Of a stretch of DNA of 55,154 bases, positions 1 to 55,154 are shown in pieces; position 1 is the stretch's first letter; each line of letters opens with the position of its first letter. A model generated the notes under the pieces. The model saw nothing but the letters and a program-made list of their open reading frames with translations. It was not told the origin of the DNA and ran no database searches. The DNA comes from Heliophilum fasciatum (GTDB taxonomy: Bacteria; Bacillota; Desulfitobacteriia; Heliobacteriales; Heliobacteriaceae). A program made the position numbers and the translations under genes. The stretch covers positions 1-55,154 of the forward strand of contig NZ_SLXT01000021.1 of NCBI RefSeq assembly GCF_004341395.1, given 5' to 3'.

Positions 1-46
1 TACGGTTTGCGGCTATTTTCTTGATTAATTTGGAAAAAACACGGTT

Positions 47-580
47 TCAACGGATACCATACTTGGTTCCATTGGGTTCCTGGACGGACTCTAATAGCAT
101 CAATTCTAGGATTTTTCCGAATTGCTCGTTGGTTCTCGTAAAACCAGCGAGCTTTTTTTCTATATCTACCTTTGCAATCACTTCTTCTTCTAGGTTGAAC
201 CTGTCTTCAAATAAGTTTTTATATGAAAGATTCTCAGCTGATCGAAGCGGAGCATCCATTGAAACTTCGGTACATAAAGTTCGTTTTAATCGATTACAAT
301 ACCTTATGAAATCGATCTCTTTATCTTTTGCATAGGTATGAAATCGTTGGGTAAAAGCCGATCTCCCGTCATACCCCACCGACGCTTTCCAGACCACTTC
401 TTCTAATTCACTAATAATCAGGTTCAATTCTAGTCCGGTTAGCCGGGAATACTTCCTTGCAGTGTGTTCGACAACAGGGGCCATGAGTTCCAGAAGGCGG
501 GCTAGTGACTCTTCGCTAGGATCTTGGTCACACATCAACGCTGTTTTATTTATTAACGTCATGTCGATTATTCTCGCCAT
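47..580 (-). CDS. Sigma-70-like phage transcription factor, possibly truncated
   Basis: This 177-residue protein has a sigma region 2-like layout: an N-terminal helical part around SRLTGLELNLIISELEEVVW, an FDG-like GYDGRS segment, then IDFIRYCNRLKR. It resembles the protein at 53547-54230; both share a G(F/Y)(T/A)(R/K)TNE segment and GT(N)KY near the C-terminus. The start has a strong site (AAAGGGGGGTGAGAA before ATG). The reading frame stops at TGA (47-49), but codons beyond it to the window edge still read as a basic helical tail (NRVFSKLIKKIAANR) that lines up with the region-4-like tail of the paralogue. The gene may therefore be broken by a nonsense change, or may naturally lack region 4. 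It is divergent from the membrane XRE gene at 729. The expected role is alternative sigma factor or sigma-like activator of phage genes (inference). Confidence 0.6.
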   Translation of the reverse strand: MARIIDMTLINKTALMCDQDPSEESLARLLELMAPVVEHTARKYSRLTGLELNLIISELEEVVWKASVGYDGRSAFTQRFHTYAKDKEIDFIRYCNRLKRTLCTEVSMDAPLRSAENLSYKNLFEDRFNLEEEVIAKVDIEKKLAGFTRTNEQFGKILELMLLESVQEPNGTKYGIR

Positions 581-728
581 TTCTCACCCCCCTTTCAATG
601 ATATTAGATGCCGCCATAGTCGTAATTTCGTGACGGAAAATTTAATTGATAAAAGTAGATGTTTCGGGAAATACTTCTAGGGCATATTCGATTCCATACA
701 TAATTAATTTCAAGGGGTAAAATGTTTA
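581..728. promoter_or_regulatory. Divergent control region between sigma-like and XRE genes
   Basis: This 148-bp spacer separates two divergently read regulators, as in lysogeny switches. It contains two related motifs, TTTCGTGACGGAAA and TTTCGGGAAA, about 30 bp apart, which could be operator half-sites. No convincing -35/-10 pair stands out. The XRE gene has an AAGGGGTA ribosome site near 712. Operator function is inferred from position only. Confidence 0.35.
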
Positions 729-1685
729 ATGGCTGCACGAAGGGCCGATCCTATTTCTCCAGAAGAACGGGTGGAAATATTAAAAAAACAGGTCGAAGCC
801 GGTGCTTATCTCGCTCATTTACGTAAACAAAAAGGCTTAACGTACTCACAACTAGGTGAACAATTAGGGGTTTCGGCATCCTATTTATCCCGATTGGAAA
901 AAGGTGGGGAATACCCCAGTGATCATCTTGTACGGAAGATCGCTAATCATTTCGAAATAATGGAATCTGATCTTTTTGAAAAACTAGGTCGTAGCCCATT
1001 GATCGCCCGGGAAGTGTTGGAACGTCATCCCCACCTAGCGAAAGCATACGAACAGGTTGAAAAAGATCCTGATTTCGACGACATTGAAAAAAATCAATTT
1101 TATGATGAAATTGCTCAGATGTATCAGGTAGTTTACGAAAGACGTAAATCATCTATTAAATCAGTTTCTAGTAGCAGCAAGGGGGCAGTTCTTATCTTGG
1201 GTACGAGTAGTTTCTTCTCCTACCTGATAGAAGGCAGGGACGCTGTTGACGCTTTTTTTATAGCCAGAATGGGCTGGCATAACTACGTGGTATTGGAGGA
1301 TTTACTCACCTTATTTTTAGGAGGAATAGTTTTCGCACCGTTGATAACTTACGTAAACTATAGGTTGCTAAAAGGTGTTCATAAATGGGTTACTAAAGTC
1401 AGTAAGAAAGTTCAAATCGTAAATGTCATTTCTGAGGACGGAGCAGAACATCATTTTTCCGATCCTGAAAACTTTTCGGATTATATCGATTTGCTCTACT
1501 TGGCAATTTTTCCACAAAAGCGACAATTGCTTTCGAGACAAAATGGAGAAACCCTGTATTACATTAAAAAAGATCTTCAACGCTCCAGGGCTATTTGGAA
1601 ATGGCTAATTACTATCGTATTGATTTTTTCGATTATCGCTTCGGTCTTGGTTATTGGAGTTACACCTGATCCCACTCAAAAATGA
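729..1685 (+). CDS. XRE-family HTH regulator fused to a membrane domain
   Basis: This 318-residue protein has an N-terminal XRE helix-turn-helix (about residues 27-80: YLAHLRKQKGLT, LGVSASYLSRLEKG). It continues into a helical linker with PSDHLVRKIA and AREVLERHPHL, then a C-terminal part with hydrophobic segments near residues 190-215 and a strong one near 290-312 (WLITIVLIFSIIASVLVIGV). DNA binding plus membrane anchoring suggests a regulator tethered to the envelope. The HTH and linker are clearly homologous to the protein at 54374-54784, where the membrane part is a separate gene. It is divergent from the sigma-like gene at 47-580. Its 3' end overlaps the primase gene by 81 bp on the opposite strand. 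The signal sensed is unknown, and an anti-sigma or repressor role is inference. Confidence 0.75.
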   Translation: MAARRADPISPEERVEILKKQVEAGAYLAHLRKQKGLTYSQLGEQLGVSASYLSRLEKGGEYPSDHLVRKIANHFEIMESDLFEKLGRSPLIAREVLERHPHLAKAYEQVEKDPDFDDIEKNQFYDEIAQMYQVVYERRKSSIKSVSSSSKGAVLILGTSSFFSYLIEGRDAVDAFFIARMGWHNYVVLEDLLTLFLGGIVFAPLITYVNYRLLKGVHKWVTKVSKKVQIVNVISEDGAEHHFSDPENFSDYIDLLYLAIFPQKRQLLSRQNGETLYYIKKDLQRSRAIWKWLITIVLIFSIIASVLVIGVTPDPTQK

Positions 1686-2621
1686 AGATTGAAAAGTATT
1701 CATCCCATCAATGATTTTGAGTAACTCTCCTCTGCTTAGATCGTTCACATCCTTAACATGATCAGGCAGTTGAAGTTGTTCCAGTTCCACAAAACCACCC
1801 ATCTGATCGGTTACTTCTTGGGCAATTTTCTGTCCGGCCCTATCATTATCAGTTGCTAACACCAGTTTCCGAATGGGGGATTGAATCAGAAGGTTTCTCT
1901 GTTGCCTGCATAAGTTCGCCCCACCCAACGCTACCGCAGGAAATCCTGCCTGCCATAGCGTAATCGCATCGATCTCACTTTCAACGATGAACACTCGCTC
2001 CGCATTAACCTTATAAACGACGTTTAAACCGTAAATATGATTACGCACAGGCTGCCCACCGAGGAAATACCAAAACATTTTCCCATGAACACTCCGAAAC
2101 TTTATATTCACTAGCTGTCCAACCTTATCGAACCAGGGGAAAGTTATGGCCCGGCTTTTCCGGTCGTATCCGATATGAAAAGCCCGTTGATACTTTTCAC
2201 TTATTCCTCGTTGCTTTGCAAGGTAAGGATGCCGAAAAGAATAATCCTGTAAAACTGCCGGGTCTAATAAAAGACTCGGCTTTTTCTTTTCTGTCAAGTT
2301 CAAATTCAGCGTCAAAGAATCTGGATCGGCAATTTTGCTCCCATATTTTTGGAGCAGGTAATCTGCCGTTTCCTCAAATGTCTCATTTCGTAGCCAGGAA
2401 AGCAGTTTTACAAATTCGCCTTTATTCCATTCGGGATCATGTGAGCCGCTGTCCAACCATACCCCACGTTCTAAATGAATAGCGAAACTGGGGTTTTTCT
2501 CATTCCGGAATGGGGAACATGCTATAAAGTTCTTTTCCGTCCAACGGGGCCGCTGCCACTCATAATTCTCGATCTCTGCCCTGATATTTACCCGAATTTC
2601 GTACCCCCGGACGGTAATCAT
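1605..2621 (-). CDS. Toprim-domain DNA primase (DnaG-like), degenerate zinc ribbon
   Basis: This is a phage primase of 338 residues. The N-terminal CHC2-type block is recognisable from CSPFRNEKNPSFAI (about residues 35-48) and a W-D-S-G...GEFVKLL segment, but most zinc-ligand cysteines are missing. The Toprim core follows with VFIVESEIDAITLW (acidic motif) and ATDNDRAGQ (DxDxxG). It should make RNA primers at the fork with the DnaB-like helicase encoded just upstream. The start ATG overlaps the stop of a 37-codon gene (ATGA). The last 81 bp overlap the convergent XRE gene. The C-terminal 25 residues after the Toprim fold are low-complexity and polar (SNNQDRSDNRKNQ), lie in this overlap, and may be poorly conserved. 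Confidence 0.8.
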   Translation of the reverse strand: MITVRGYEIRVNIRAEIENYEWQRPRWTEKNFIACSPFRNEKNPSFAIHLERGVWLDSGSHDPEWNKGEFVKLLSWLRNETFEETADYLLQKYGSKIADPDSLTLNLNLTEKKKPSLLLDPAVLQDYSFRHPYLAKQRGISEKYQRAFHIGYDRKSRAITFPWFDKVGQLVNIKFRSVHGKMFWYFLGGQPVRNHIYGLNVVYKVNAERVFIVESEIDAITLWQAGFPAVALGGANLCRQQRNLLIQSPIRKLVLATDNDRAGQKIAQEVTDQMGGFVELEQLQLPDHVKDVNDLSRGELLKIIDGMNTFQSSFLSGIRCNSNNQDRSDNRKNQYDSN

Positions 2622-2871: not shown

Positions 2872-4140
2872 CTAAAATAGGTCAGTTACATCCGTTTCTC
2901 GTACATATCCCAGGTTAAAATTCACGGATAATTCTACAACTTTCCCCACATTTGGTTTCCGGCATTTCTCGATTGAAATTTTGCCGATTCCGTCTGCTGC
3001 ATCAAAGGTTAGGACGGTTGCCGCATCTTGGATCACCGCTATAGTTTCACTATAATCGGTCAGCTTCGGGGGCTTTACGATTCTGTTCCCCTCGTCATCT
3101 TGCTTTGCCCCCTCTTTTTCCGCAGCACCGGGGGTTTGGTGAACCACTAGACCCGCCACCCCATACCGCCCGAAAAGCTGCCGAAGTCGCCGCGAAGTCG
3201 AAGTCATAGCATCCCGTAGCCCTTTTCCCTTGCCATGAATCATCAGGTTAAAGCCATCGATGATCACCATTTTTGTATCGGGAAAGGTTTGCAGATCGGC
3301 TTCGATGGCCTCCAAGGTTAACCCGCCCGGCAGGTCTTCCATCGTCTTGATAACATAGGCACCCTGGAATTCTGCTACCTCTGGGGAAAAGGCTTCTAGG
3401 TATCTGAAATAGGCTTCTTCGTTGTCCAGCAAGCCCCGTCGTAGCTTCACATTATCGAATTTGCCCATAAGCGTATCCAGGCGAAGGCTTTGCTGCTTCT
3501 TTGAAAGTTCAGGCGAATAATGCAGCACCGGAAAACGATTTTCCCAGGCCGTAAGGCCGATATGCGAAGCGATCCACGATTTACCCCGGTTCGTGAAAGC
3601 CATTAGCAAGATAAAGTCGCCCGTTTCGAATCCCCCTGCTAAGTCTTCGGTCAGGGTCGCGTATGGGGTAGGAATATAGATCGATTCGCGGGCTGTCTTC
3701 GCTTCGTCGTACCATTCCCGCCGTTCGTTACCGTTGGCTGCATAGTTCGTTCCCAAGGAAAAGGTCGAAGCGGTTAGGGCTTCAATCCGGGCCGTTTCTT
3801 CCTTTAGCCAGGTAATGAATTTATCACCCGGTAGTTCGGAAAACTTGCTCCCAGCCTGATTTTGCAGCAGTTCGAAGGCTTGCAGCTTTGCGGTCTGGGC
3901 CTTTAATCGGGTACAAAGAAATTTGAAGGTGTCCGATACGCTGGGCATATAATCAAATTCAGTGAATTCCGCTGCCACCGTCCGGGGATCGGGGGCTTGT
4001 CCGTTATCTTTCACATAGTCACGTATAAATGCATACACCTTTTCCAGTGTGGGGAAATCATCGCTGTCAATGTTGTATAAATAAAGTTGCTGAAATGCAT
4101 TTTCATCGATGGCTTTGGAAAGCAGTTGTGATTCCAGCAT
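2872..4140 (-). CDS. DnaB-like replicative helicase
   Basis: This 422-residue protein is a RecA-fold hexameric helicase of the DnaB/gp41 type. It has an N-terminal helical domain (residues 1-140), then a RecA core with the Walker A-like segment AFTNRGKS, the Walker B segment MVIIDGFNLM and a later VVHQTP element typical of DnaB motif 3-4. It should unwind DNA at the phage fork. Its start overlaps the stop of the loader gene (TAATG), so the two are translationally coupled. The ribosome site is AAAGGCGGGG. The Walker A has NRGKS rather than the classic GxGKT/S, as in some phage DnaB proteins. Confidence 0.85.
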   Translation of the reverse strand: MLESQLLSKAIDENAFQQLYLYNIDSDDFPTLEKVYAFIRDYVKDNGQAPDPRTVAAEFTEFDYMPSVSDTFKFLCTRLKAQTAKLQAFELLQNQAGSKFSELPGDKFITWLKEETARIEALTASTFSLGTNYAANGNERREWYDEAKTARESIYIPTPYATLTEDLAGGFETGDFILLMAFTNRGKSWIASHIGLTAWENRFPVLHYSPELSKKQQSLRLDTLMGKFDNVKLRRGLLDNEEAYFRYLEAFSPEVAEFQGAYVIKTMEDLPGGLTLEAIEADLQTFPDTKMVIIDGFNLMIHGKGKGLRDAMTSTSRRLRQLFGRYGVAGLVVHQTPGAAEKEGAKQDDEGNRIVKPPKLTDYSETIAVIQDAATVLTFDAADGIGKISIEKCRKPNVGKVVELSVNFNLGYVRETDVTDLF

Positions 4141-4901
4141 TAAAAAAGCCCCGCCTTTCTATGGTCTACACCCCGGAATGAAACGGGGATCGCGGCCCCC
4201 TCGATCCGGCTTGCGATCCGATCATCCAGCAGTCCGGCGATCTCGTTCAATGGCAGGTTCGACGTGTAAATGCTCGTCATTCCCTCGATGATCCGCCCGT
4301 CGATCACTTCGTAGAATTCGGATCGGTAGGCTTCCGTTGCTTCACGAACCCCAATATCATCTAAGACCAACAATTCGGCCCGCAGCATTCGCCTTTTTAG
4401 TTTGTAATATTGATAGCTTGCAGCTTGCTGCATCTCTGGGGTTCCGCGAAACTGGGCATTAAACGCATTCTGATACTTCGACGCATTGACAAAAAGGGCA
4501 GGGATTTCGTCGATCTGCCGTTCCTTTTTTACATGCTGAATCGTCCGGGCCACCATGAATTCATTCAGGATCGCCACCGCTGCCGTTGTCTTCCCAGTTC
4601 CGGTTCCTTTGGGGTTGTCCAACTGGGGAATCGAAAAAAGATATAGCCCGCAGCCCTTTGCCACTTTCCCCAGCACATCGGCACAATATTTTTGAACGGC
4701 AGTACAGGCCACCGGATTATCCTGTTCGAAGGGAAGTCTTGCCGCTGTCACCCCGGCATAGGTCTTCGGAATCCCGGCCAGGCCCCAGATCCCGCCGCGT
4801 CCTGTTTCCCCTTGCAGCTTTAGAAAGGCATAACATAGGGGGCCGCAGAAGGCGAGGTTTCCGGCCTGCTTGCACTTGCTCTTTAATAGGCAGTTGTCCA
4901 C
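4140..4901 (-). CDS. DnaC/DnaI-like helicase loader ATPase
   Basis: This AAA+ loader of 253 residues has a Walker A segment NPKGTGTGKTTAA (about residues 92-104), a Walker B segment LLVLDDIGV (about 175-183) and a downstream SIYTSNLP sensor 1. The N-terminus carries a cysteine cluster (CLLKSKC, then CGPLC) that may bind zinc, as in other DnaC/DnaI loaders. It should load the DnaB-like helicase encoded immediately downstream. The start is GTG after AAGGGGG. It follows the initiator gene with a short gap and its stop is coupled to the helicase start. Confidence 0.85.
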   Translation of the reverse strand: MDNCLLKSKCKQAGNLAFCGPLCYAFLKLQGETGRGGIWGLAGIPKTYAGVTAARLPFEQDNPVACTAVQKYCADVLGKVAKGCGLYLFSIPQLDNPKGTGTGKTTAAVAILNEFMVARTIQHVKKERQIDEIPALFVNASKYQNAFNAQFRGTPEMQQAASYQYYKLKRRMLRAELLVLDDIGVREATEAYRSEFYEVIDGRIIEGMTSIYTSNLPLNEIAGLLDDRIASRIEGAAIPVSFRGVDHRKAGLF

Positions 4902-4914
4902 GCTTCACGCCCCC

Positions 4915-5790
4915 TTAAATCCGGTCTATCAATGCCAGCAGTTCATCGTCTGTCCTGCCACCATGTTCCGGTATATTCATTCTTACTTCCCGCTGCTGGG
5001 CTACTGCTAGGGCCTTTTCCGCCATCCATGTAGCCAGGGCCGCTATGCTAGGCCGGGGGAATTTTTGAAGGCTTCCCCATTTCTCGTACATTTCCACTGA
5101 AATGTCTACCATCTGCCGCAGTTGTTCCGACGAGTATTGCCCCATCAGATTCTTTTTCACCAGCTTTGTTTCCCTGGGCCAGTTAGGGGAATAGTTCGCG
5201 TTGTATTTCTTCCGGTATCTCTGGCAGAAATAGCGGATCACACTTTGAGCCGTCGCAAGGTCTTCAGCGATTGCCGCCGTTGCTTCATCAGCTTGAGCCG
5301 CTGCTGTCTTACTGTTATTACAGTTAATAACCGGGGGATCAGATATATCCGTATTCTTTGTATATACAAGATGAACGGGGTCGTTCGTTTCTGCTATGGG
5401 GTCGTTCATTTCTAATACGGGGTCGTTCATTTCGTATATGGGGCTGGGCATCACCTGGGCCGCAGGAAGGATCTTATAATGGGAATATTCGGCCTGGGAA
5501 TTCGGCAGCTTCCGCATTTCCCGCACAAAAATTGCTTCCCCATTCCACCGGAATTCAAGTAGTGAGTTCACCCACCGGCTAATTGTGCATCGGTTTTTTC
5601 CTGCTAACATTGCAAGGGTTGTCTGGGAAGGCCAGCATTCGCCTTTTTCATCCATATGGGCCGCGATAATGCACAGCAGCATCCATCGTTCCGGCCCCAG
5701 CTTGGCGATCAATTCGCTCGTTATCGCTGACTTTAACACCCGAAATCCAATTAGTTCGGCCTCGGGGTGTTGAATGTTTGCGGTTTCCAT
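4915..5790 (-). CDS. Phage replication initiator with winged-helix domain
   Basis: This 291-residue protein carries an N-terminal winged helix like those of Gram-positive phage initiators: WMLLCIIAAHMDEKGECWPS followed by LAMLAGKNRCTISRWVNSL. The middle contains three heptads of the form (E/T)-x-NDP(V/I), encoded by a 21-bp DNA iteron. The C-terminal half (about 185-290) is helical and DnaD/loader-interaction-like, with RYFCQRYRKKYNANYSPNW. It is the first gene of the initiator-loader-helicase-primase operon. The start at 5790 is chosen because GGAGG lies 10 bp upstream; an ATG 13 codons earlier is possible. Role: recognise the origin and recruit the loader. The iterons suggest that the origin lies inside this gene. 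Confidence 0.75.
   Translation of the reverse strand: METANIQHPEAELIGFRVLKSAITSELIAKLGPERWMLLCIIAAHMDEKGECWPSQTTLAMLAGKNRCTISRWVNSLLEFRWNGEAIFVREMRKLPNSQAEYSHYKILPAAQVMPSPIYEMNDPVLEMNDPIAETNDPVHLVYTKNTDISDPPVINCNNSKTAAAQADEATAAIAEDLATAQSVIRYFCQRYRKKYNANYSPNWPRETKLVKKNLMGQYSSEQLRQMVDISVEMYEKWGSLQKFPRPSIAALATWMAEKALAVAQQREVRMNIPEHGGRTDDELLALIDRI
5377..5439. repeat. Three 21-bp iterons inside the initiator gene, candidate origin
   Basis: GGGGTCGTTC(G/A)TTTC starts at 5377, 5398 and 5419, a perfect 21-bp period. AT-rich DNA containing TTATTACAGTTA lies just to the left (5316-5370). Iterons next to an AT-rich stretch within the initiator gene are a known origin design (lambda O, many Gram-positive phages). 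A related 21-bp-spaced pair occurs at 30587-30621. Confidence 0.6.
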
Positions 5791-5797
5791 GATCTCG

Positions 5798-6004
5798 TTA
5801 CCTCCGTTCCCTGGGTTTGATACCGACATTTCCCCACAAGTGGTTTATCGTTTTTACATGGAAGTCATGATCGGACATTCCACAGTCCGGGCATCTCTTG
5901 TATCCCGTCCAGTTATCCTTTTTAAAATTCCGCCATTCACCGCAGTACGGGCACCACAGATCGCCCTTCCGCTTTTTCTTTGCCGGGTCAATGAATTTGA
6001 TCAT
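5798..6004 (-). CDS. Small zinc-ribbon protein
   Basis: This 68-residue basic protein has two CPxC knuckles (CPYCGEW and CPDCGM) 19 residues apart, followed by a His-containing tail, so it is a likely zinc ribbon binding nucleic acid or protein. The ribosome site AAGGAGG is 8 bp from the ATG. It lies directly upstream of the initiator gene on the same strand and is probably cotranscribed with the replication operon. Specific function is unknown. Confidence 0.7.
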   Translation of the reverse strand: MIKFIDPAKKKRKGDLWCPYCGEWRNFKKDNWTGYKRCPDCGMSDHDFHVKTINHLWGNVGIKPRERR

Positions 6005-6360: not shown

Positions 6361-6404
6361 GGACAGGGGCAGCACAGAAGTCGCTTCCTCTGTCCCGTGC
6401 TATT
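6361..6404 (-). terminator. Hairpin between amidase and holin
   Basis: GGGACAG and CTGTCCC bracket a GC-rich loop. In minus-strand reading the hairpin is followed by an AT-rich but not uridine-pure stretch (ATTAAATTATT). It could be a weak terminator or an attenuating structure between the amidase and holin genes. Confidence 0.45.
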
Positions 6405-6438
6405 TAGATACCGCTTCCGGGTATGATTTGTAACACGA

Positions 6439-7119
6439 TCAAGCACTTAGTTTTTCAAATAGGCCCATTCTGTCTAATACCACCACGATACGGTAAAAAG
6501 ATTGATCCCCCAGGGGGTCAGTAATCAATCCTTTTTGGTGTAATTTGATCAAGGTTGGTCGTGCCCACTCCGGGATTTTGTCATAGAGTTTCTGGGCTTC
6601 AATTTTGGCCTGCTCCGCTGCTTGCCGGGCCATTTCTGCATCCAGTCGGGTTTTTACTCCCGCGATAAATTGATCCCAGTGGGGAAGGATCAAATGGGGG
6701 CAATCTTTACCCGTCCAGTTTTTATGAGGCACCACGTTTTCAAGCGGGATTCCGTTTTCAATCAGTAGCTTGCAAACAAGATCCTGGGCATTGGCTTCAG
6801 CTTTCGCCAGATCCCCATCAGCATTTTCACAGATTTCGATTCCCACGCTGGTTCGGTTGCCGGGGCCATTTGTGCCATCCCCGGCATGCCAGGCGTTTTC
6901 AGTGATCGGCAAATGTTGAATGATCTGCTTATCGTCAACGGTATAATGCCAGCCCGTAGATCCCGCAGCCGTTGATTTGATATATTCTACATGCCCGGCA
7001 GCATTGGCTCCCTTGCTGCTGTTCCCAGTATTGTGAATCGTGAGATATGCAGGTTTCATCGGATAGCCGGGCCGATTTCTTGCACCCTTTTGGATCAATT
7101 CTTGTGTGATTTCTACCAT
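6439..7119 (-). CDS. N-acetylmuramoyl-L-alanine amidase (endolysin)
   Basis: This 226-residue endolysin is of the Amidase_2 (PGRP-like) family. The zinc-site segments are visible: LTIHNTGN (first His), WHYTVDD, AWHAGDG, and the C-terminal HKNWTGKDCPH with His and Cys-Pro-His. It cleaves the amide bond between MurNAc and L-Ala of peptidoglycan. After an Ala/Gln/Lys-rich linker (about 165-185), the C-terminal 40 residues (IPEWARPTLIKLHQKGLI) look like a short wall-binding or SLH-like repeat. Its neighbours are the BhlA-like holin upstream and the holin downstream, giving a complete lysis cassette. Confidence 0.9.
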   Translation of the reverse strand: MVEITQELIQKGARNRPGYPMKPAYLTIHNTGNSSKGANAAGHVEYIKSTAAGSTGWHYTVDDKQIIQHLPITENAWHAGDGTNGPGNRTSVGIEICENADGDLAKAEANAQDLVCKLLIENGIPLENVVPHKNWTGKDCPHLILPHWDQFIAGVKTRLDAEMARQAAEQAKIEAQKLYDKIPEWARPTLIKLHQKGLITDPLGDQSFYRIVVVLDRMGLFEKLSA

Positions 7120-7134
7120 GTTCTTTCTCTCTCC

Positions 7135-7383
7135 TTAGCTGTTTTTGTGGTTCCGAATCTCGTTTTTAATCTCTTGCACATCATCAGAAAGCCGTTCATA
7201 CTGCCGGGCCAGGGATTCAAACTGTTTTGACATCTCAGATAAAAAAGCCGTCAACTTGTCCTCTCTACCCCTTGATTCATTTTGCTGCCGCCTGCCCTCT
7301 TGCAGTTGATAGACGTAAAGGGAAACAAAAAGGCCCGCCCAAACCCCTTGTTTTAATGCTTCACTTACAAGGGTATCCACCAT
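7135..7383 (-). CDS. BhlA/UviB-like holin
   Basis: This 82-residue protein has one N-terminal hydrophobic segment (KQGVWAGLFVSLYVYQL) and a charged coiled-coil C-terminus (LARQYERLSDDVQEIKNEI). This matches the BhlA/UviB family of phage holin-like proteins, whose signature is a QG.(W/F)A.LFV core. The start is placed at 7383, where GGGGGTGAG precedes ATG. The amidase gene follows by 15 bp. It probably forms the holin partner for lysis. Confidence 0.75.
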   Translation of the reverse strand: MVDTLVSEALKQGVWAGLFVSLYVYQLQEGRRQQNESRGREDKLTAFLSEMSKQFESLARQYERLSDDVQEIKNEIRNHKNS

Positions 7384-7447
7384 CTCACCCCCGGCTGCAT
7401 GTTTAGCTTTTGAGTTCAATAACAACGGCACTTGAAAAATAAAAAAA

Positions 7448-7463
7448 GACGTTGTTTCACGTC
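7448..7463 (-). terminator. Terminator after tail gene block
   Basis: GACGT/ACGTC stem with a 6-nt loop (GACGTGAAACAACGTC on the minus strand) followed by TTTTTTTATTTTT. It lies directly after the stop of the 56-codon gene and separates tail genes from lysis genes. Confidence 0.75.
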
Positions 7464-7634
7464 TTAATCTTTGGAAAGCATATCGATAATCAGATCCAAC
7501 TTTTCAGCCAGGGAATCCAGGGTGGCCTTCTCGCCCTTTGCTTTTTTGCTTGCATGTTCCGCGATCTTCGCTTTGATCAACTGTTCCTTAATCTCTGCTT
7601 GTGTTTTATGGATGGTCAGGGTTGGCTTGCTCAT
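7464..7634 (-). CDS. Small 56-residue protein at end of tail operon
   Basis: The ORF begins MSKPTLTIHKTQAEIKEQL and ends IIDMLSKD. It is highly charged and helical. Its ATG overlaps the stop codon of the upstream gene (TAATG), which indicates translational coupling. The position, between the last fibre-associated gene and the lysis genes, is where Gram-positive phages often carry an XkdX-size protein. No domain is recognised. A terminator follows immediately. Confidence 0.55.
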   Translation of the reverse strand: MSKPTLTIHKTQAEIKEQLIKAKIAEHASKKAKGEKATLDSLAEKLDLIIDMLSKD

Positions 7635-8020
7635 TATTCTTCAACCTCCACCATGAGATAGGCAGGATCACACCCCGGCATGATCGTGCTAAGTGTAATC
7701 GAAATAACCCCTTTGGCGTTGCTGATAAAATCGAATTCAGCTTTGCTATTCACAGGGGCCAGGATCAAGTTTACGGGGTCGGCCCCCATCCGGGCCACTA
7801 CCACTTCAATCGGTTCGGTAATACCCGGCTGGGGGGTGTCCTGCCAGTCCATGATCTCAACATTCAACGGCAGGGCTTCCCCGATCTTGATCACGTTCTT
7901 TCCCCCGGTTACAGTGATTTTCTTTGCCCCACAATAAACAGACTTTGAAAAGGTAAAATCGCCATCCTTTTCAATCTTATAGATGATTCCATTTTCTTCA
8001 ATGTAGTCCACCGAATGCAT
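7634..8020 (-). CDS. Phage tail-associated protein, unknown function
   Basis: This 128-residue beta-rich protein has an immunoglobulin-like feel (KITVTGGKNVIKIGEALPL, then IEVVVARMG and MVEVEE at the end). The start at 8020 is set by GGGAGG seven bases before ATG. It sits in the distal tail gene block between a fibre-like gene and the 56-codon gene, with coupling to the latter. It is probably a minor tail or fibre accessory protein. No family was recognised. Confidence 0.55.
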   Translation of the reverse strand: MHSVDYIEENGIIYKIEKDGDFTFSKSVYCGAKKITVTGGKNVIKIGEALPLNVEIMDWQDTPQPGITEPIEVVVARMGADPVNLILAPVNSKAEFDFISNAKGVISITLSTIMPGCDPAYLMVEVEE

Positions 8021-8038
8021 CGAAAAACCTCCCAATTA

Positions 8039-8656
8039 TTAAACCATCCGAATATAGTACACAGCCCATTTAGGGTTAGGGGTTGAGTTACTGCTGCCTG
8101 ATCTCACGGAAAGTTTGAAGTTAGTATCACAGTAAAACATTGGGGGAATCGTAAATTGTGCCTTGGTGGAAAAAGTTACCGATGAATGGTATGGGTTGGG
8201 CAAGAAATACGCATTGCTTCCGTGTGACGTACTTGTAACATCGTTGTTTGTAGTATTGTAATACTCCACAATGCCGTTTGATCCGTTAGCCGTTGAACCC
8301 GATACGTTAAAAATATTGGCCCCATCAGCCACCAGGGTATAGTAGGCATATTGGCTGGTCGTGCCCAGGTCAACGTAGCCACCCAGGATCAGAATCGGCC
8401 CGGTTAATTCAAACATATCCACAGTAATATTCGCTGAAACCGTGTTTTGGTATCTTCCATATTGAATATATACTTTTTTGCCCGCCATCCACGGGGTTCG
8501 GGCTAAGGCTGTATTCACGGTCGAAAAGTTAGTATTCACGGTGTCTTTAAGATCGCCCAGCTTTGAATGAACGCTACCTGTGCCACTAGACGAATCTGTC
8601 CGAACCCCTAGCTGCCGTTGCAAAAAGGAAATCAGTGTTTCCGTTGCTCCAAACAT
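8039..8656 (-). CDS. Putative tail fibre/receptor-binding protein
   Basis: This 205-residue protein has a short helical N-terminus (TLISFLQRQLG, LGDLKDTVNTNFSTV), followed by a Ser/Thr/Asn/Gly-rich beta region ending in WAVYYIRMV. Low charge and Tyr/Asn/Thr richness are typical of receptor-binding tips. The start at 8656 overlaps the stop of the upstream gene (TAATG) after a G-rich ribosome site. It is likely a distal tail fibre component. There is no catalytic motif. Confidence 0.5.
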   Translation of the reverse strand: MFGATETLISFLQRQLGVRTDSSSGTGSVHSKLGDLKDTVNTNFSTVNTALARTPWMAGKKVYIQYGRYQNTVSANITVDMFELTGPILILGGYVDLGTTSQYAYYTLVADGANIFNVSGSTANGSNGIVEYYNTTNNDVTSTSHGSNAYFLPNPYHSSVTFSTKAQFTIPPMFYCDTNFKLSVRSGSSNSTPNPKWAVYYIRMV

Positions 8657-9387
8657 TACAAAGCCCCCCGTTTCAGGTATGATCCGTTCCATGTGAAGGT
8701 TAAAACATCCCGAATCCCACCCTGGGACGTACCCGCAGGGGGCAAATATCGGTACATTTTAGAAATCACTTCACCGCTATATTCAACGGCAGTAAAGCCG
8801 CTGCCATAAATCCCGTGCCTGAACAATCCGCTTTCCCCGGAAAAAATCTTGTAATGGGCTGAATTCACTTGGCCCCAGGCCCCCGCCCCGTTGCGTTGAT
8901 AGGTTGGATAGTTGGCATCCTGGGCCGCTTCTCCATGCAGCCGAATATAGTTGGTTGCATCCCCAGCTTTCCGCACTACTAACCAGTAACGTGCCCCGCT
9001 GGTTAGGCCCGTAAGGTCAAAGGGGATAGATACATAGGCTTTTGACGTAGTAACGAATTCAGCAGGCAGCACCATCTTTTTTAATAAAATCCCTTCGCTG
9101 CTGTCGTCCGTCACTAACCCCGCCCGGATTTCGATCACTAGATCGGCACCACTCCCACCCTTGACCAGTTCCAGTTCCACCCGTGCGACCTCCGTTACCC
9201 CCAGGGAAGTGAAATAAATTGCCGTATCATAACTTGAATTATCGAATTGATACACGCCCGCCCCGGTTTTCCCGTCCACTTGGGTTCCGTCATAAACAAG
9301 GGCGAAAGGCTGAATAGAGATCAGGGAATTCATAGTTGCTTCATCGATCACCGTTGTTCCATTCTTAAAAGCATTGATCACCGTCAC
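8656..9387 (-). CDS. Putative tail fibre protein
   Basis: This 243-residue, beta-rich protein opens with MTVINAFKNGTTVIDEATMN. A lectin-like jelly-roll region follows (VELELVKGGSGADLVIEIRAG, then SIPFDLTGLTSGARYWLVVR), which resembles carbohydrate-binding sandwich domains of phage baseplates. The C-terminus (VLTFTWNGSYLKRGAL) is coupled to the next gene. It is probably part of the host-recognition apparatus at the tail tip. Confidence 0.55.
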   Translation of the reverse strand: MTVINAFKNGTTVIDEATMNSLISIQPFALVYDGTQVDGKTGAGVYQFDNSSYDTAIYFTSLGVTEVARVELELVKGGSGADLVIEIRAGLVTDDSSEGILLKKMVLPAEFVTTSKAYVSIPFDLTGLTSGARYWLVVRKAGDATNYIRLHGEAAQDANYPTYQRNGAGAWGQVNSAHYKIFSGESGLFRHGIYGSGFTAVEYSGEVISKMYRYLPPAGTSQGGIRDVLTFTWNGSYLKRGAL

Positions 9388-9398
9388 TGGGCCACCCC

Positions 9399-9818
9399 CT
9401 ATTCTTCCGCTGCAATAGTGATCCGGGCTTCCACCGTCAGCACGGTATTTCCCGCTTTCGACCAGGGCTGGGTTAGCAGGTTTAACATTGTCCCGCTACC
9501 CGCCACATCGGTTCCACCGATAAAGATTGCCGCTTTGGTATGATCACCGTTACATTCACCCTGCAAAATTTGAGTCCTGAACCTGATCAAGCTGCCTGAT
9601 ACGATAATCGTTGAAACGGGTTTCCGCAGCACTTCCACGATTGTTTCACCGGGGGCGGAATCATCCCCCACCACTAAATAAGGGCTGGGCAGTTCTGCAA
9701 TGGTTTGGGATAAAAGCAGCAGCCCAGCAGAAGTAATCGAATTAAAAAGGGGGCCGCTCACGGCTCCCCCTTCTTCTTCAAAAAACCATTCACCCTTCAG
9801 CTTTACATTTTCCATCAT
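9399..9818 (-). CDS. Tail/baseplate-associated protein
   Basis: This 139-residue beta-rich protein begins ENVKLKGEWFFEEEGGAVSG. Such small proteins in baseplate regions often describe a boundary or collar component with a field-value pattern (LVVGDDSAPGE, FRTQILQGECNGDHTKAAIF). Its ATG overlaps the stop of the upstream frame (ATGA). The function is assigned only from position within the distal tail block. Confidence 0.5.
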   Translation of the reverse strand: MMENVKLKGEWFFEEEGGAVSGPLFNSITSAGLLLLSQTIAELPSPYLVVGDDSAPGETIVEVLRKPVSTIIVSGSLIRFRTQILQGECNGDHTKAAIFIGGTDVAGSGTMLNLLTQPWSKAGNTVLTVEARITIAAEE

Positions 9819-10243
9819 TGGGAAATAACCACCTCACCGCATAGGTTGATCGTTTCATCAAGGATCTTCTTTGTGTTTTTATAGCGAATTCCCCCGCCAT
9901 AATGGGCCAGTTTGAAAAATCCGGGGTAAGGTACGGTCACAGGTTCACCCAGGGCCACTTCCTGCCACCCGGTATAATTCACCCCGTCTGTACTTGTTTT
10001 CACCTTTGCCGTTACTCCCGGCAGGTTGGAATCCTTGGGCAGCACCAGCAGCCGCGATCCCACCGTTGCAATACCGGGCCTGCTTGTACCTTCAACGATC
10101 AAGGAAAAATAATTCAGCTTGGGGGAAGTAGGAAGGTCGGTCGTCAGGCTTTGCCGCACTTGCAGGGCTGCCGTTGAAAGGTCTAGCCCAGGGGTTAGGC
10201 CCGGCACTTGGCCCCGTTGGTTGCCGCCTGCCACCCTTGCCAC
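9815..10243 (-). CDS. C-terminal part of tail hub protein in a shifted frame
   Basis: This open frame of 142 codons contains QVPGLTPGLDLSTAALQV followed by a module STDGVNYTGWQEV. The preceding hub frame ends in a similar module, STDGGGTWQGWQAATNG, and in phage tail proteins that module is normally followed by exactly such an (I/V)PGL.PGTDLS segment. The two frames overlap by 49 bp and differ by -1, with a GGGG run at the junction. It is therefore likely the C-terminus of the 10195-12426 product, joined by ribosomal slippage, or severed by a one-base deletion. Independent initiation at the in-frame ATG is less likely, since no good ribosome site is seen. Confidence 0.65.
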   Translation of the reverse strand: MARVAGGNQRGQVPGLTPGLDLSTAALQVRQSLTTDLPTSPKLNYFSLIVEGTSRPGIATVGSRLLVLPKDSNLPGVTAKVKTSTDGVNYTGWQEVALGEPVTVPYPGFFKLAHYGGGIRYKNTKKILDETINLCGEVVISQ

Positions 10244-14456: not shown

Positions 14457-14485
14457 ACTGATCCCCCTTCCAGGCATAAAAAAAA

Positions 14486-14523
14486 GCCCGCCGCCGCCAT
14501 CACACAGGACAGCGACAGCGGGT
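14486..14523 (-). terminator. Terminator between tail chaperone and tape measure
   Basis: The minus strand reads CCCGCTGTCGCTGTCC, a loop, then GGCGGCGGCGGGC and a run of eight T. It lies after the gpGT stop and before the tape measure start. Confidence 0.75.
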
Positions 14524-15142
14524 TAATTCCGATCTTTGTTGAATTGTTTCTGCAATTTTTCCAGGGTTTGCAGTTGTTCTTCCCTATCGATTCGCTTGTA
14601 TTCCGTCTGCTTGCCCAGCAGCAGATCCGGGGTAACGGGCCGCTTTAAGTTGCCGCTTGCATTCATCAAGTTCGCAGCCAGCCACGCCGTCCGGTTATAT
14701 TCAGCTTCTTGAAGTTCCCTTTCCTTTTCATGGACAGCTTCTAACATGGTCAATAATTCATCCAGGGTTAGGTTCCAGAATTCATCGGGGGTAATCCGAA
14801 GCGATCTGAAAGCCGCTTTTTTCAGCAGGGGCCAGTCGCTTCGGTCTATACGTTTTTTCTTGTTGCCACTTCAAAGGCAGCCGCGATCTTTTCTTGCACT
14901 TGGGCAAAATTTTCAAAGTCCACCATTTCACCCACTTGGGTTTCGGTCAATTCAGTATCTTCATGGATCAGGCCCGCCCACAGGATCACCCGGATTGCCT
15001 TGATCCCCAGGTTGGCCCCGTCCATTTCCCCCACGTTCACGCCCAGCTTATCTTCAATTTCAGCCAGGGCATTTAATGTATATCGAAGGTTCCGGGGCTT
15101 ATCCAGTTCGATTTCCACGATTCCACGATGTTTATTAGCCAC
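14523..15142 (-). CDS. gpGT-type tail assembly chaperone by -1 frameshift
   Basis: The extended product reads through the gpG-like frame (14846-15142), slips by -1 on A_AAA_AAC, and continues DWPLLKKAAFRSLRI...LTLDELLTM, then EAVHEKERELQ to the stop at 14523. The T part with W-P-L-L-K and ITPDEFWNLTLDEL is characteristic of tail chaperone extensions. As in lambda G/GT, a small fraction of ribosomes would make the long form, which brings tail tube subunits to the tape measure encoded next. An internal ATG (14753) lies within the extension, but no strong ribosome site precedes it. Confidence 0.82.
14846..15142 (-). CDS. gpG-like tail assembly chaperone
   Basis: This 98-residue acidic protein begins ANKHRGIVEIELDKPRNLRY and ends AAAFEVATRKNV. 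It contains ALAEIEDKLGVNVGEM and AIRVILWAGLIHEDTELT, the helical pattern of Gram-positive phage tail chaperones. It is the short, unshifted product of the gpG/gpGT pair and sits between the major tail protein and the tape measure, the canonical place. It ends in TAG (14846-14848) four codons after the slippery AAAAAAC. Confidence 0.82.
   Translation of the reverse strand: MANKHRGIVEIELDKPRNLRYTLNALAEIEDKLGVNVGEMDGANLGIKAIRVILWAGLIHEDTELTETQVGEMVDFENFAQVQEKIAAAFEVATRKNV
14852..14858 (-). promoter_or_regulatory. Slippery heptamer AAAAAAC for -1 frameshift
   Basis: The minus strand reads A AAA AAC in the gpG frame (codons AGA AAA AAC GTA TAG), a canonical X XXY YYZ slip site. Re-pairing in -1 gives AAA AAA CGT ATA GAC and opens the T extension. 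No downstream pseudoknot was worked out. Confidence 0.8.
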
Positions 15143-22581: not shown

Positions 22582-22594
22582 GGCCTTTTCCTCC

Positions 22595-24289: not shown

Positions 24290-24370
24290 GTTTGCACAAT
24301 CTCCCACCAATTAATTATTTTTAATTTATTCGTATATTTTAGTAAAATAACAGAATTTAACAAAAAGGAA

Positions 24371-24395: not shown

Positions 24396-24497
24396 CCGCA
24401 TCTATTCATTTGATAATACAGATAGAGAGTGTCCGGTCTATAAATTAGTTTATCTTTCGGAGGAAATAACAAGCTTAAACTTATTTATAATAGCTGA

Positions 24498-50629: not shown

Positions 50630-52860
50630 CGGGTCATCAAGTCGGTGTCCACTTTTAAGGGAATATCCAGTTGGGCGGCGCAGGTCATGCAGTGCTCCAT
50701 TTCGGCCACTTCCTGCGCGGTAATCGATGCGTCGACAATCATCAACGCTTCATCGTGAACCGTACCGCACAGCGCCCACCCTTTCGTTGTGCAATATCGA
50801 TGCAGGTTCAACATGGCTCGTTTCATGATGTCGGCAGCGGTGCCTTGGATAACGGCATTGACGCTTTGTCGCCGAGCCGATTCCACGTCGCGCTTCACAT
50901 CGCGGAATTGATTTTTCAACTCGCGAGGGATCGCTTTGTTCTGCCAGAAGTCCACAGGCAATTCATCGACACCGAGCAGTTTGCAAATCTCAGCGACCGT
51001 CCGATCATAGACCTTGGCTTTTTGCCGATGACCGGGGAATCGACGCTTGCGACCGTAAAGCGTCTCTACGTACTCGTTTTCCTTCACGAACTCGTGGGTG
51101 CTTTTAATGAAGGAATGCACTCGCGGATACGTCTGAAAGAAGTCCCGAATGAACTGCTGCGCTGCTTCTTCCGTGATACCAAGCTGGCTCGACAGCGTGT
51201 GCATACTCGTCCCGTACATCACCGCAAGAAGCCCGACCTTCATCATCTTTCGGTACTTCGACCCATCACCGCAGTCCTCCATCGGAACCTTGAACACCCG
51301 GCTTGCCAGCGTCGAATACAAGTCCTGACCCCGTAGGTACGGTTCTTGCAGATGGGGATCGCCGCTGATGTGCGCCAGAACCCGTGGCTCGATTTGCGAA
51401 AAGTCGCTACCCACCAACAGCTTGCCGGGTGGTGCCACAATCAGCTTTCGCGCCTTCGTGGGCAGATTCTGCAGATTCGGCTCATTGCTGGAGAATCGTC
51501 CGGTCACCGTGGCCACTTGATTGAAGGAACCGTGGATGCGACCGTCCGATTTCATCTGTTCCGGCAGTGCTTCCACGTAGGTGCTGAGTAGCTTGGAGAG
51601 TTCACGATAACGCAAGAGCACCTCAATCCCCGGATGTTTGTCGCGCAGTGCCTTCAGCGTTTTCATATCCGTCGATCGCCCGTTGACTTCCGGTAATTGC
51701 AGTTCATCATAGAATTTCCGAGCCAACTGAATGGGAGAGTTAAAATTCAGCTCACCGAAATGGTCGTGAAGCGATTGTTGAAGCTTGGTGATTTCTTGCC
51801 GTAGTTCTTCGCCATAGACCCCGGCATATTGCCGATCAATCAGGAAGCCGGTCTGTTCCATATCGACACAAACGTCAATCAGCGGATTCTCCAGATCACG
51901 ATACAGCCCGTCCAACTTCGATAACCGGTTCAGGTGCTCCCGTTGCCACTGATACAGTTTCCAAGTGAGGTGCGTGTCCTTGGCGGCGTAGACCAGGGCA
52001 ACATCTAAGGGAACATCGTCAAAGCGGGTTTTGCCAAACAGGTCTTCAAAGGTGTGACTCGTATCGTGGAAGCCGAAGAATTTTCCATACTTGGTCGCCA
52101 GATTCTTGAGGGCGTACGACGGTTCGTTCTCGTTGAGCAGCGCCATCGCCACGCGGGTATCATGAGCCAAGCCGCGCATCCGCACGTTGTGGCGTAGCAA
52201 CATGTGGATGTCGTACTTGGCGTTATGAAGCACTTTGCCAATGGCGGGGCTGCTCAAGCACGGTTCGAGCCGTTTCAAGACCGTGGTTCGATCAAGTTGC
52301 TGCCCGACCTTATGGGCTACCGGGATATACACGTGGAAATCGGCCTTGGGAAGCGTCAGCGACATCCCAACAATCACGTCATTGTAGACATCAAGCCCAG
52401 TGGTTTCGGTATCGAAAGCCACGATGGTTTCCTGTGCAAGATCTGTGACCAATTGGGCTAACTGTTCTCCCGTTTGAATGAGGCGATAATTTGCGGGGGT
52501 TTTGGCAACCATATCTTTGAGTACCGTATGCTTGCGAAGATCCTGTAACTCACGCCATAACCGTAGTGCGTGGGCTTTCGTGAACTTCCGCAAACTTTCA
52601 ACACCCACGCCGATCTCGCCAGCATCAATCGCAGCTTTAACCGTCTTGAGCCGTTGTTTATCGAGATCAGTAAGCCCCGTTTGAAAGATGGCTTTCTTGA
52701 AGGTGCCGGTGTAACTTGTCCAACCGGTGACCCACACTTCATCCCACGTCGGTTCACGCTTCGCCATTTCCTTCTTGTGTTGGGCTTCCCACACACGATC
52801 CAATGCGTTGGGTAGCGTTGGTTCCCTTAATCCCTCCAGTTGCAGTTTTGGATTGATCAT
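50581..52860 (-). CDS. Family A DNA polymerase with 3'-5' exonuclease
   Basis: This 759-residue replicative polymerase has an N-terminal region of unknown fold (1-140), then a DnaQ-type exonuclease with FDTETTGLD (150-156), LHNAKYDIHML and YAAKDTHLT (291-299). The polymerase domain shows motif A SDFSQIEPRVLAHIS (485-499), motif B KYRKMMKVGLLAVMYGTS (535-552), RQSVNAVIQGTAADIMKRA and motif C VHDEAL (701-706). The residue matching E. coli Phe762 is Leu545, which in viral PolA genes is often linked with temperate or slower-replicating phages. It overlaps the SSB gene by one base. Confidence 0.93.
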   Translation of the reverse strand: MINPKLQLEGLREPTLPNALDRVWEAQHKKEMAKREPTWDEVWVTGWTSYTGTFKKAIFQTGLTDLDKQRLKTVKAAIDAGEIGVGVESLRKFTKAHALRLWRELQDLRKHTVLKDMVAKTPANYRLIQTGEQLAQLVTDLAQETIVAFDTETTGLDVYNDVIVGMSLTLPKADFHVYIPVAHKVGQQLDRTTVLKRLEPCLSSPAIGKVLHNAKYDIHMLLRHNVRMRGLAHDTRVAMALLNENEPSYALKNLATKYGKFFGFHDTSHTFEDLFGKTRFDDVPLDVALVYAAKDTHLTWKLYQWQREHLNRLSKLDGLYRDLENPLIDVCVDMEQTGFLIDRQYAGVYGEELRQEITKLQQSLHDHFGELNFNSPIQLARKFYDELQLPEVNGRSTDMKTLKALRDKHPGIEVLLRYRELSKLLSTYVEALPEQMKSDGRIHGSFNQVATVTGRFSSNEPNLQNLPTKARKLIVAPPGKLLVGSDFSQIEPRVLAHISGDPHLQEPYLRGQDLYSTLASRVFKVPMEDCGDGSKYRKMMKVGLLAVMYGTSMHTLSSQLGITEEAAQQFIRDFFQTYPRVHSFIKSTHEFVKENEYVETLYGRKRRFPGHRQKAKVYDRTVAEICKLLGVDELPVDFWQNKAIPRELKNQFRDVKRDVESARRQSVNAVIQGTAADIMKRAMLNLHRYCTTKGWALCGTVHDEALMIVDASITAQEVAEMEHCMTCAAQLDIPLKVDTDLMTRWGEGITKKEWFVSAA

Positions 52861-53540
52861 TAGAACGGCAGTTCTTCCGTCGATTCGTCAATCGGTGTTA
52901 CACCTGCATCCGGCAGTTCATTCGTAAAGCATCGCTCAACGGGAAACCCGGCCTTCTCTAATTCCTCAATCTGCTGCTGCCGGGTACGCGGTTGAAGGAC
53001 AGCCTCATAAATTTCATCTTCCACCGCACCCTTGTCAAAGCGGTTAAACTTTTCCCGGTCATCGGGTTTCAGTTTAATGATCGGATTGAGCGTGAACGTT
53101 GTGTCTACTTTGGTTCCGGTTCGTTTGAACACAAAGGCCAGTTCAGCGAGGTCTTCTTGATATTGCTCGATCGTCTGGATCAATCCGTGGGCTTGTCCTT
53201 GGCTAGCATCAAAGATACGCACCATCCCTTCATCGATATCAGCCATAGCAAAGAGGTAGCGTTTACGAGCACGAAGTGACTCAAACTCTTCCACACCGGC
53301 CTTTGCCGCCTCACAGTGGGCACATTTTTGCCCCGCCGGTTCAATGCACGGCTGCGTGTAGATGCCTTGCTGATACAGACCGTGGGCACGATATTCCACG
53401 TAATCTTCGGGCGACAGTAAACGAACACGCACCGAGTCGCCGTCTTTCAATCGGATAAACACCTTCTTGAAATCGATCGCGGAGTTTCTCTTGTTGACAG
53501 ATTCCTTGGCATCTTTACCTTTCGCTGTGATTACACCCAT
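52860..53540 (-). CDS. Single-stranded DNA-binding protein (gp32-like)
   Basis: This 226-residue protein contains RLKDGDSVRVRLLSPEDYVE, a cysteine cluster PCIEPAGQKCAHCE (CX8CX2C), which resembles a zinc site of T4 gp32-like ssDNA-binding proteins, and an acidic tail ending ESTEELPF, the usual protein-interaction tip of SSBs. It coats ssDNA at the fork of the PolA-type polymerase encoded directly downstream. It follows the sigma-like gene with six bases between, so it belongs to the same operon. Confidence 0.75.
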   Translation of the reverse strand: MGVITAKGKDAKESVNKRNSAIDFKKVFIRLKDGDSVRVRLLSPEDYVEYRAHGLYQQGIYTQPCIEPAGQKCAHCEAAKAGVEEFESLRARKRYLFAMADIDEGMVRIFDASQGQAHGLIQTIEQYQEDLAELAFVFKRTGTKVDTTFTLNPIIKLKPDDREKFNRFDKGAVEDEIYEAVLQPRTRQQQIEELEKAGFPVERCFTNELPDAGVTPIDESTEELPF

Positions 53541-53546
53541 GTTTCT

Positions 53547-54230
53547 TCATCCTCCATAATTGTGTTGTTTTTTACTCTTAAAAATCGTTTGTGGAGACCA
53601 TTCTTCAAGCGCAAACCCGCCCGTTTGTGAAATACCTTGAAGATATGCTCTAAAATGTTGTTTTGCTCGTTGCACCCCCTTTCGGCAACGGGCATCGTAT
53701 TTGTTCGTACCAAATACGGTGCGTGCGATCTCATTTTTTGGGCGATCCGCATATAACAAGCGAATGATGGCTCCATAATGCTCGTTGGTTTTGGCATAAC
53801 CATCGAGTATTTTTTTTATGTCCATTTCTTCAATCACCGATTGCTCGAATGGCTCCAAACTCGGCAGGAACTCCTTGTGATTGCCGTCTTCTTCATCAAG
53901 AATTTGGTCTAACGAAATTGTTCGGCTGGGATTGCGTTTTTTTGCTAAATGATAGCGTAACGTACTGGCCATTGCAGGCTCGGAAAAATAGGTCAACCTC
54001 TGCAAAATATTGGTTTCTCCGTTAAAATTCCGTGCCGCGTTCCATAACGCTTGAGAATAGACGCTTTCAACGTCACTCGCTGGCATTTGATAACGCCGCT
54101 CCCGATCTCTTGCTTCTTTTTGGATCGAAGGCTTTACTTTTTCAAAGAGGCGATTGAAATAGCTTTCATCCTTTGACTCCGCGTATCGTAACGCCATTTG
54201 ATCAAGCTGCTTTACCTCGGCTTCCTTCAT
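53547..54230 (-). CDS. Sigma-70-like phage transcription factor, full length
   Basis: This 227-residue protein has region 2-like sequence (LFEKVKPSIQKEARDRERRY, DVESVYSQALWNAARNFNGE, TLRYHLAKKRNPSRTISLDQ) and a region 4-like HTH (NEIARTVFGTNKYDARCRKG, VQRAKQHFRAYL). It is paralogous to the left copy at 47-580 and longer at the C-terminus. It is the first gene of the SSB-polymerase operon, so it may drive or regulate it. The start at 54230 follows AAGGAGCC; a longer frame to 54275 exists. Divergent from the XRE gene at 54374. Confidence 0.7.
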   Translation of the reverse strand: MKEAEVKQLDQMALRYAESKDESYFNRLFEKVKPSIQKEARDRERRYQMPASDVESVYSQALWNAARNFNGETNILQRLTYFSEPAMASTLRYHLAKKRNPSRTISLDQILDEEDGNHKEFLPSLEPFEQSVIEEMDIKKILDGYAKTNEHYGAIIRLLYADRPKNEIARTVFGTNKYDARCRKGVQRAKQHFRAYLQGISQTGGFALEEWSPQTIFKSKKQHNYGG

Positions 54231-54373
54231 GATCCAAGGCTCCTTCCCGTTTGATTTCAAGTTGTTTAGGAACACTAATCACACAACGTGTTATTGCCTA
54301 CAAGCGTATATGCTTATCTGCTTAACGTTAGGCTACAAGAATGGACGGAGGCTCCAACTGGATATGGTTATAC
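54231..54373. promoter_or_regulatory. Divergent control region of the right sigma/XRE module
   Basis: Contains AAGCGTATATGCTT (near-palindrome) and the repeated motif CTTGTAG(C/G)C(T/A)A on the minus strand, 29 bp apart, good operator candidates. A GGAGG at 54346 is 23 bp before the chosen XRE start, unusually far. No clear sigma-A promoter was identified. Confidence 0.45.
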
Positions 54374-54806: not shown

Positions 54807-55154
54807 ATGTTATTCTTTGATAATGGCGCAGGCTCTTTTTTTCACTATTTCGTGGCCACCTTCGGCTGGGAATTTGCGGTTCGTATAAAAGGATTCTTCG
54901 GGATTATTGCGGGAGTTCTTCTCGGAATTGCACTTACCGTTGTATATGGAGCGATCATCTACCTCCGTATTCGCCGTGCCCATAAACTCATACAAGAGAA
55001 GGAACTCGAAAGTTTTCCTGAATATCTCTCCTTATTGATCATTCCGCAGGAGGTCAATCCTGTTTTAGCTAACGCAAAATGCCCAAAAGCTGACGACATT
55101 GCCTGTCCGGAACCTGCTGTATATAATGGCCATAGGAAATACGGAAGGGAAAAA
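54807..55154 (+). CDS. Membrane protein, partner of XRE regulator (partial, runs off window)
   Basis: The visible 116 residues begin LFFDNGAGSFFHYFVATFGW, with a membrane segment at about 28-52 (GFFGIIAGVLLGIALTVVYG), followed by a short charged stretch (IRRAHKLIQEKELESFPEYL) and a variable region with two Cys (NAKCPKADDIAC). Its layout parallels the C-terminal half of the left XRE protein (FFIARMGW, membrane helix, FSDYIDLLYL-like). AAGGAGG precedes the ATG by 9 bp; it is 22 bp from the XRE stop. No stop codon is reached in the window. Confidence 0.7.
   Translation, partial: MLFFDNGAGSFFHYFVATFGWEFAVRIKGFFGIIAGVLLGIALTVVYGAIIYLRIRRAHKLIQEKELESFPEYLSLLIIPQEVNPVLANAKCPKADDIACPEPAVYNGHRKYGREK

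Follow-up and report, generated by a model that had tools for sequence, protein, structure and literature searches.

At both ends of a 55154-bp stretch of Heliophilum fasciatum DNA (the window, i.e. the entire contig C21 of a 3,142,229-bp genome in 73 contigs), a gene encoding a sigma-like protein is located divergently to a gene encoding an XRE-type protein, as described in an earlier note on this sequence. There is a probability of roughly one half that the XRE protein acts as a CI-like repressor of its prophage, usually has a membrane partner and faces an early operon headed by a gene of the sigma-70 family. The locus would govern the choice between lysis and lysogeny in a group of related siphovirus-type prophages of Heliobacteriaceae. 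The assignment as repressor of the promoter in front of the sigma gene is based on the isolated position of the XRE cassette on the opposite strand, the antirepressors encoded in these prophages and the exchange of the cassette. A lysogeny or replication switch, as the earlier note proposed, is still the best reading of the locus.

Each end of the contig is occupied by a prophage, with host-like genes in between. The left prophage (1 to ~30 kb) harbors integrase, terminase, portal, capsid and replication genes, the right one (~41.4 kb to the contig end) genes for NrdD, a methylase, a DNA polymerase and an SSB-like protein, and IMG/VR lists two separate viral contigs within the window. Domain and phage-family matches confirmed that both pairs adjoin phage replication genes (Table 1). 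The NrdD of the right prophage (46019-48898, minus strand) is a protein of 959 amino acids with an intein-like insertion (Intein_splicing, E 1e-5); the homologue in a prophage of Heliorestis convoluta comprises 640 amino acids (L124, 16359-18281). Near the far end of the prophages, a small sigma-region-4-like gene is found (window 41732-42067, minus strand; L125, 4045-4341), possibly encoding a regulator of late genes. The C-terminus of a minor capsid protein (19343-21067, minus strand) is weakly similar to metallopeptidases (Peptidase_M90, E 3e-4).

Table 1. Features of the two sigma/XRE loci and adjoining genes in the window
Feature	Position	Strand	Remarks
Insertion sequence (IS) end, 22-copy repeat	1..91		cuts the left sigma gene short
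Left sigma-like gene, truncated ORF	47..580	-	sigma proper is 92-580 only: region 2, linker, start of putative region 4
5-bp target duplication TAATA/TATTA	92..96		second copy at contig C37 beside the rest of the sigma gene
Divergent spacer, left pair, 148 bp	581..728		promoters/operators presumed
Left XRE repressor-like protein with fused membrane region	729..1685	+	HTH at residues 24-84
Phage DNA primase (Toprim)	1605..2621	-	upstream part of the left replication operon; convergent, overlaps the end of the XRE-membrane fusion gene
DnaB-like helicase, DnaC-like loader, HTH_36 initiator	2872..5829	-	remainder of the left replication operon
SSB-like protein	52860..53540	-	downstream of the right sigma gene; phrog_6883, ssDNA-binding families
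Right sigma-like gene, intact (sigma2 - linker - putative sigma4)	53547..54230	-
Divergent spacer, right pair, 143 bp	54231..54373
Right XRE repressor-like protein, soluble, 136 aa	54374..54784	+
Separate membrane-partner gene, truncated	54807..55056	+	homologous to the membrane part fused in the left protein
End of second repeated element, 5 matches	55060..55154		interrupts the right membrane-partner gene

The left sigma gene is interrupted by an insertion sequence at position 91/92. Positions 1-91 gave 22 matches in the same genome, mostly at contig ends, the final ~15 codons of the left open reading frame are IS sequence, and the DNA similarity to the closest relative of this gene (in H. 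chlorum, 78%) stops at about position 91. The missing C-terminal codons, encoding putative region 4, are found at the start of contig C37, next to the opposite end of this IS, and are followed there by SSB and polymerase genes; the left copy is thereby left without this region. The IS has imperfect terminal repeats (GAGTCCGTCC and GAGTCTGTCT). Reading of the left TGA stop codon as recoding was rejected, since the stop is located within the IS sequence. This 22-copy IS-like repeat generates an AT-rich 5-bp target duplication, breaks the assembly and strikes at least two prophage control genes; in a third prophage of the same genome (L118, C35:1-2511), a KilAC antirepressor gene is cut by the same IS end.

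The right pair is built differently. Its XRE gene had been taken in the earlier note as one open reading frame from 54374 to 55154; the XRE protein ends at 54784, and the membrane open reading frame contained in the claim does exist, but as a separate gene, starting at 54807 and preceded by its own ribosome-binding-site-like AGGAGG. This gene is cut at about 55057-55060 by the second repeated element. A membrane-embedded XRE protein would therefore apply to the left fusion protein only, the right XRE protein being not embedded in the membrane. Both sigma/XRE copies in the window are thus broken by mobile DNA and probably non-functional. The homology claimed for the two pairs was confirmed for both the sigma-like proteins (26% identity, E 1e-16) and the XRE proteins (39% identity, E 9e-33). 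The shared motifs NE(Q/H)(F/Y)G, PSDHL(V/I)R and LE(R/D)HP.L are real, but GT(N)KY does not reflect homology: the left match, GTKY, is accidental because it is IS-encoded.

A sigma2 fold was predicted for the sigma-like protein, in agreement with its earlier assignment to the sigma family. In an AF2 model built from 12 relatives (mean pLDDT 77; residues 1-90 with pLDDT >=90), region 2 superimposed with that of SigC of M. tuberculosis (Z 11.3, rmsd 2.1 over 88 residues), and the model also matched sigmaE of E. coli (Z 10.7). With sigmaS and sigma32, it aligned over both domains, with a large rmsd resulting from domain placement. The linker is disordered in the model and region 3 is absent. A C-terminal helical, HTH-like region is present in the right sigma protein and its relatives, where the corresponding BacL2 region matched at 1e-12 and Pfam Sigma70_r4_2 only at 0.098. 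The top NCBIfam match of the right protein was BacL2 (NF041508) over the full length (E 5.9e-19), with 68.7 bits under a curated cut-off of 200; none of 61 genomes contained a BacL2 match above this cut-off. Matches were also obtained to the sigma70-ECF family TIGR02937 (7.5e-6) and, in five of 12 members, to Pfam Sigma70_ECF. The protein is a genuine but divergent sigma-70-family member with putative activity.

Both XRE proteins contain an XRE / Cro-CI type HTH, as indicated by HTH_31 scores of 50.7 (left) and 51.7 bits (right) at a gathering score of 27. HTH_25 was matched by the fused left protein with 19.2 bits, below the cut-off of 24.6, and with 26.7 bits by the right protein, which has no membrane part. 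Neither protein matched the RodZ C-terminal domain or a Pfam S24/LexA-type autocleavage domain. The hydrophobic helices of the left fusion protein span residues 188-206 and 293-311. Separate membrane partners have a size of 118-180 amino acids, usually with two strong hydrophobic helices as well as a loop of at least 60 residues bearing a conserved 'NP....Ev' motif. They could not be assigned to a known family in Pfam or NCBIfam, and an SdpI domain was not matched by any of 16 membrane proteins at E 0.1. A profile made solely from the separate membrane proteins detected the C-termini of the two fused proteins at E 1.5e-6 and 3.5e-7, whereas the best unrelated open reading frame reached 0.07 and the best of 200 shuffles 1.5. 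Judged by this profile, the fused and separate membrane parts are homologous, which suggests that the XRE protein and its partner work together. The basic residues flanking the conserved loop suggest that it is cytosolic; in the fused form, such a topology needs an extra membrane segment before the first strong helix. No support emerged for sensing of the envelope, put forward in the earlier note: this charge pattern points to a loop inside the cell, and no sensor or ligand-binding domain was recognised in the membrane partner.

Across five genomes of Heliobacteriaceae, profile and tblastn searches revealed 14 strong sigma loci. At 13 of them, including 11 besides the window pairs, an XRE gene of the same family is encoded divergently at a distance of roughly 60-410 bp, so that conservation of the pair in other prophages was corroborated. 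A membrane component is located beside most of these XRE genes, as a separate two-helix gene in nine pairs; a fusion as claimed for the XRE protein is found in only two (the left copy of the window and the related one in H. chlorum), and two pairs have no membrane gene. Where flanks are visible, the common order is DNA polymerase, SSB, sigma, XRE (followed by the membrane protein) and primase, with the XRE-membrane cassette (XRE-TM) inverted between primase and sigma inside the replication operon. At the fourteenth locus, on contig C35 of the same genome, sigma directly follows primase without an XRE gene in between; XRE-TM therefore appears as an optional cassette placed antisense into the replication operon. 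Distances between sigma genes correlated with those of primase at r 0.93 versus r 0.65 for XRE, which places sigma in the replication module and marks the XRE cassette as the part exchanged more readily. Between the left prophage and locus L063, identity was 30% for XRE, 84% for SSB and 64% for primase. Replacement of a cassette with its neighbours kept, as these identities suggest, is as expected of immunity modules.

Beyond Heliobacteriaceae, the XRE-membrane cassette is nearly always encoded without sigma. In prophage-like regions of the same class lacking sigma, it faces genes for small Cro-like XRE proteins, DUF7768 or Bro-N. Together with the tighter tracking of primase by sigma and the sigma gene on C35, this distribution contradicts an obligate sigma-XRE tie. 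Of 398 genomes sampled across the phylum, seven contained the membrane family, each of them belonging to the class of the window genome. One XRE-TM pair is borne by LC810155.1, a Bacillota plasmid of 52 kb, with E 5e-42 for the XRE and 2e-12 for the membrane protein; the region 21671-30060 of this plasmid (L034) contains two XRE genes of the family, one with a two-helix membrane partner, in a ParM/replication region. The Paenibacillus plasmid NZ_CP090979.1 carries, divergent from an XRE gene, a gene with weak similarity to sigma (E 3e-6); genes for AgrB and LytTR proteins follow immediately downstream (6404-14715, L036). Close relatives of sigma were not found in phage and plasmid records, nor were those of two membrane proteins in phage records; for the XRE part, phage and plasmid records gave distant matches only.

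In the complete H. convoluta prophage, located at about 1.473-1.515 Mb, integrase, capsid, lysis, replication and nucleotide genes are all oriented in one direction, and XRE and its partner alone are encoded on the opposite strand. A profile search identified this XRE gene as the sole member of the XRE family in the H. convoluta prophage and in the visible window prophages. In several of the prophages, genes for the antirepressors Bro-N, ORF6N and KilAC adjoin primase, which fits a repressor that has to be inactivated. The spacers contained no common operator above shuffles, and promoter and terminator scans gave counts about equal to shuffles. As leads, a strong inverted repeat was found in the L043 spacer only (TAACGTTATTG..AAATAACGTTA), and TAGATGTA half-sites occurred in several groups of spacers. 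In the spacers of L039, L040 and L041, an inverted repeat TACCACTA...TAGATGTA upstream of XRE is shared by all three, partly with compensating changes, and is a possible operator.

What we infer comprises repression, the target promoters, contact between XRE and the membrane protein, and the role of sigma. On the strand opposite to the early operon, only the CI-like XRE protein would be encoded with its two-helix membrane partner, separate or fused. The early operon would begin with sigma, followed by SSB, DNA polymerase and genes of nucleotide metabolism. In the lysogen, the sigma promoter is most likely shut off by XRE. Once repression is relieved, for which the antirepressor genes immediately upstream of primase might be responsible, sigma would be produced and would steer RNA polymerase to promoters of the phage. 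By binding XRE, the membrane partner may keep or titrate the repressor at the membrane and in this way determine its strength or its induction. Against assignment as a repressor count the lack of a shared operator, of an S24-type domain or another CI hallmark, the C35 locus without XRE, the two pairs without membrane gene and the closer relation of sigma to primase than to XRE.

Rather unlikely is that XRE-TM is a self-contained lysogenic accessory of the superinfection exclusion or addiction type, which represses only itself and has sigma as a neighbour by chance. Small membrane proteins encoded next to a repressor frequently act in exclusion, many related genomes as well as plasmid LC810155.1 carry the cassette without sigma, and C35 has sigma without the cassette; however, the complete prophage offers no other repressor candidate of the XRE family, the place facing the early operon is kept at 13 loci, and the fusion of XRE with the membrane part speaks for the two acting jointly in regulation. 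A more specific form of the repressor reading, regarded as unlikely, is a repressor that works at the membrane: the two-helix partner or fusion would hold XRE and release or clamp it after a membrane event, e.g. infection by another phage, and thereby gate sigma and the lytic programme. Quite improbable is sequestration of the SdpR-SdpI kind, where such an event (e.g. DNA injection by another phage) would cause the partner to pull XRE off the DNA and switch sigma on. The cassette of repressor and membrane protein, present as two genes in nine loci and fused in two, is in line with it, but a permanent fusion would keep XRE at the membrane at all times, a ligand-binding domain was not recognised and two pairs have no membrane gene.

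An envelope-sensing XRE-TM that acts directly on sigma in an anti-sigma-like manner, as the earlier note had it, is very improbable. Sigma and XRE-TM do adjoin in most of the 13 loci, usually with a membrane component, but XRE-TM is widespread without sigma and sigma also occurs without XRE-TM; moreover, two pairs miss the membrane gene, the conserved loop is probably cytosolic and sigma covaries less with XRE than with primase. Hardly to be expected is a sigma protein that chiefly reprograms the host, e.g. its sporulation, instead of phage genes. Sigma factors of phages that alter sporulation have been described (PMC9429907), and the host proteins nearest to the family profile are SigH-like; this relation is only a distant one (E about 1e-15), and the gene heads phage replication genes.

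Among these readings, the CI-like repressor facing a sigma-headed early operon can be compared with several known systems. In the lambda immunity region, cI-rexA-rexB is divergent from cro and the early operon. The heliobacterial locus likewise has an HTH repressor and a membrane protein on one strand and the early lytic operon on the other, but its first early gene encodes a sigma factor instead of Cro, the cassette lies between primase and SSB, the membrane partner is unrelated and sometimes fused to the repressor, and a cleavage domain was not found. In SdpR-SdpI of B. subtilis, a repressor is held by a membrane immunity protein. A small repressor encoded with a membrane protein, and possible sequestration, are common to both, whereas the repressor here is of the XRE and not the ArsR type and its partner, sometimes fused, has no SdpI match. 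RodZ-type anchored HTH proteins resemble the fused form in having an HTH and a membrane helix, with a weak HTH_25 match, but the fused form is a phage protein with two helices and a cytosolic-looking loop that does not match the RodZ C-terminal domain. BacL2, the regulator of Enterococcus bacteriocin 41 (NF041508), is the best NCBIfam match of the right sigma protein, which in contrast is encoded in a phage operon rather than on a bacteriocin plasmid and scores under the cut-off. As in other Bacillota phages, a sigma-70-family gene is present in temperate phages of spore formers (PMC9429907), here paired with XRE-TM and without a close phage or plasmid relative. A prophage repressor probably opposed by an antirepressor is reminiscent of the Gifsy systems (PMC3121763), the antirepressors here being Bro-N, ORF6N or KilAC proteins that adjoin primase.

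In a limited open-access literature, no paper was found on a prophage repressor that has this membrane family as a partner or as a fused part. Since both pairs are interrupted by IS elements, the window copies are poor experimental material; intact relatives are present in Heliorestis convoluta and Heliobacterium mobile. If the proposal is true, the lysogeny switch gains two unusual parts, a repressor with a conserved membrane protein and a sigma factor facing it. It would provide a concrete route for a prophage to couple its repressor to the membrane and an initial entry point to regulation in heliobacterial prophages, which have received little study. As a lysogeny switch, a repressor whose dedicated membrane partner is sometimes fused to it is an undescribed variant; its principle is that of the lambda repressor and early operon.
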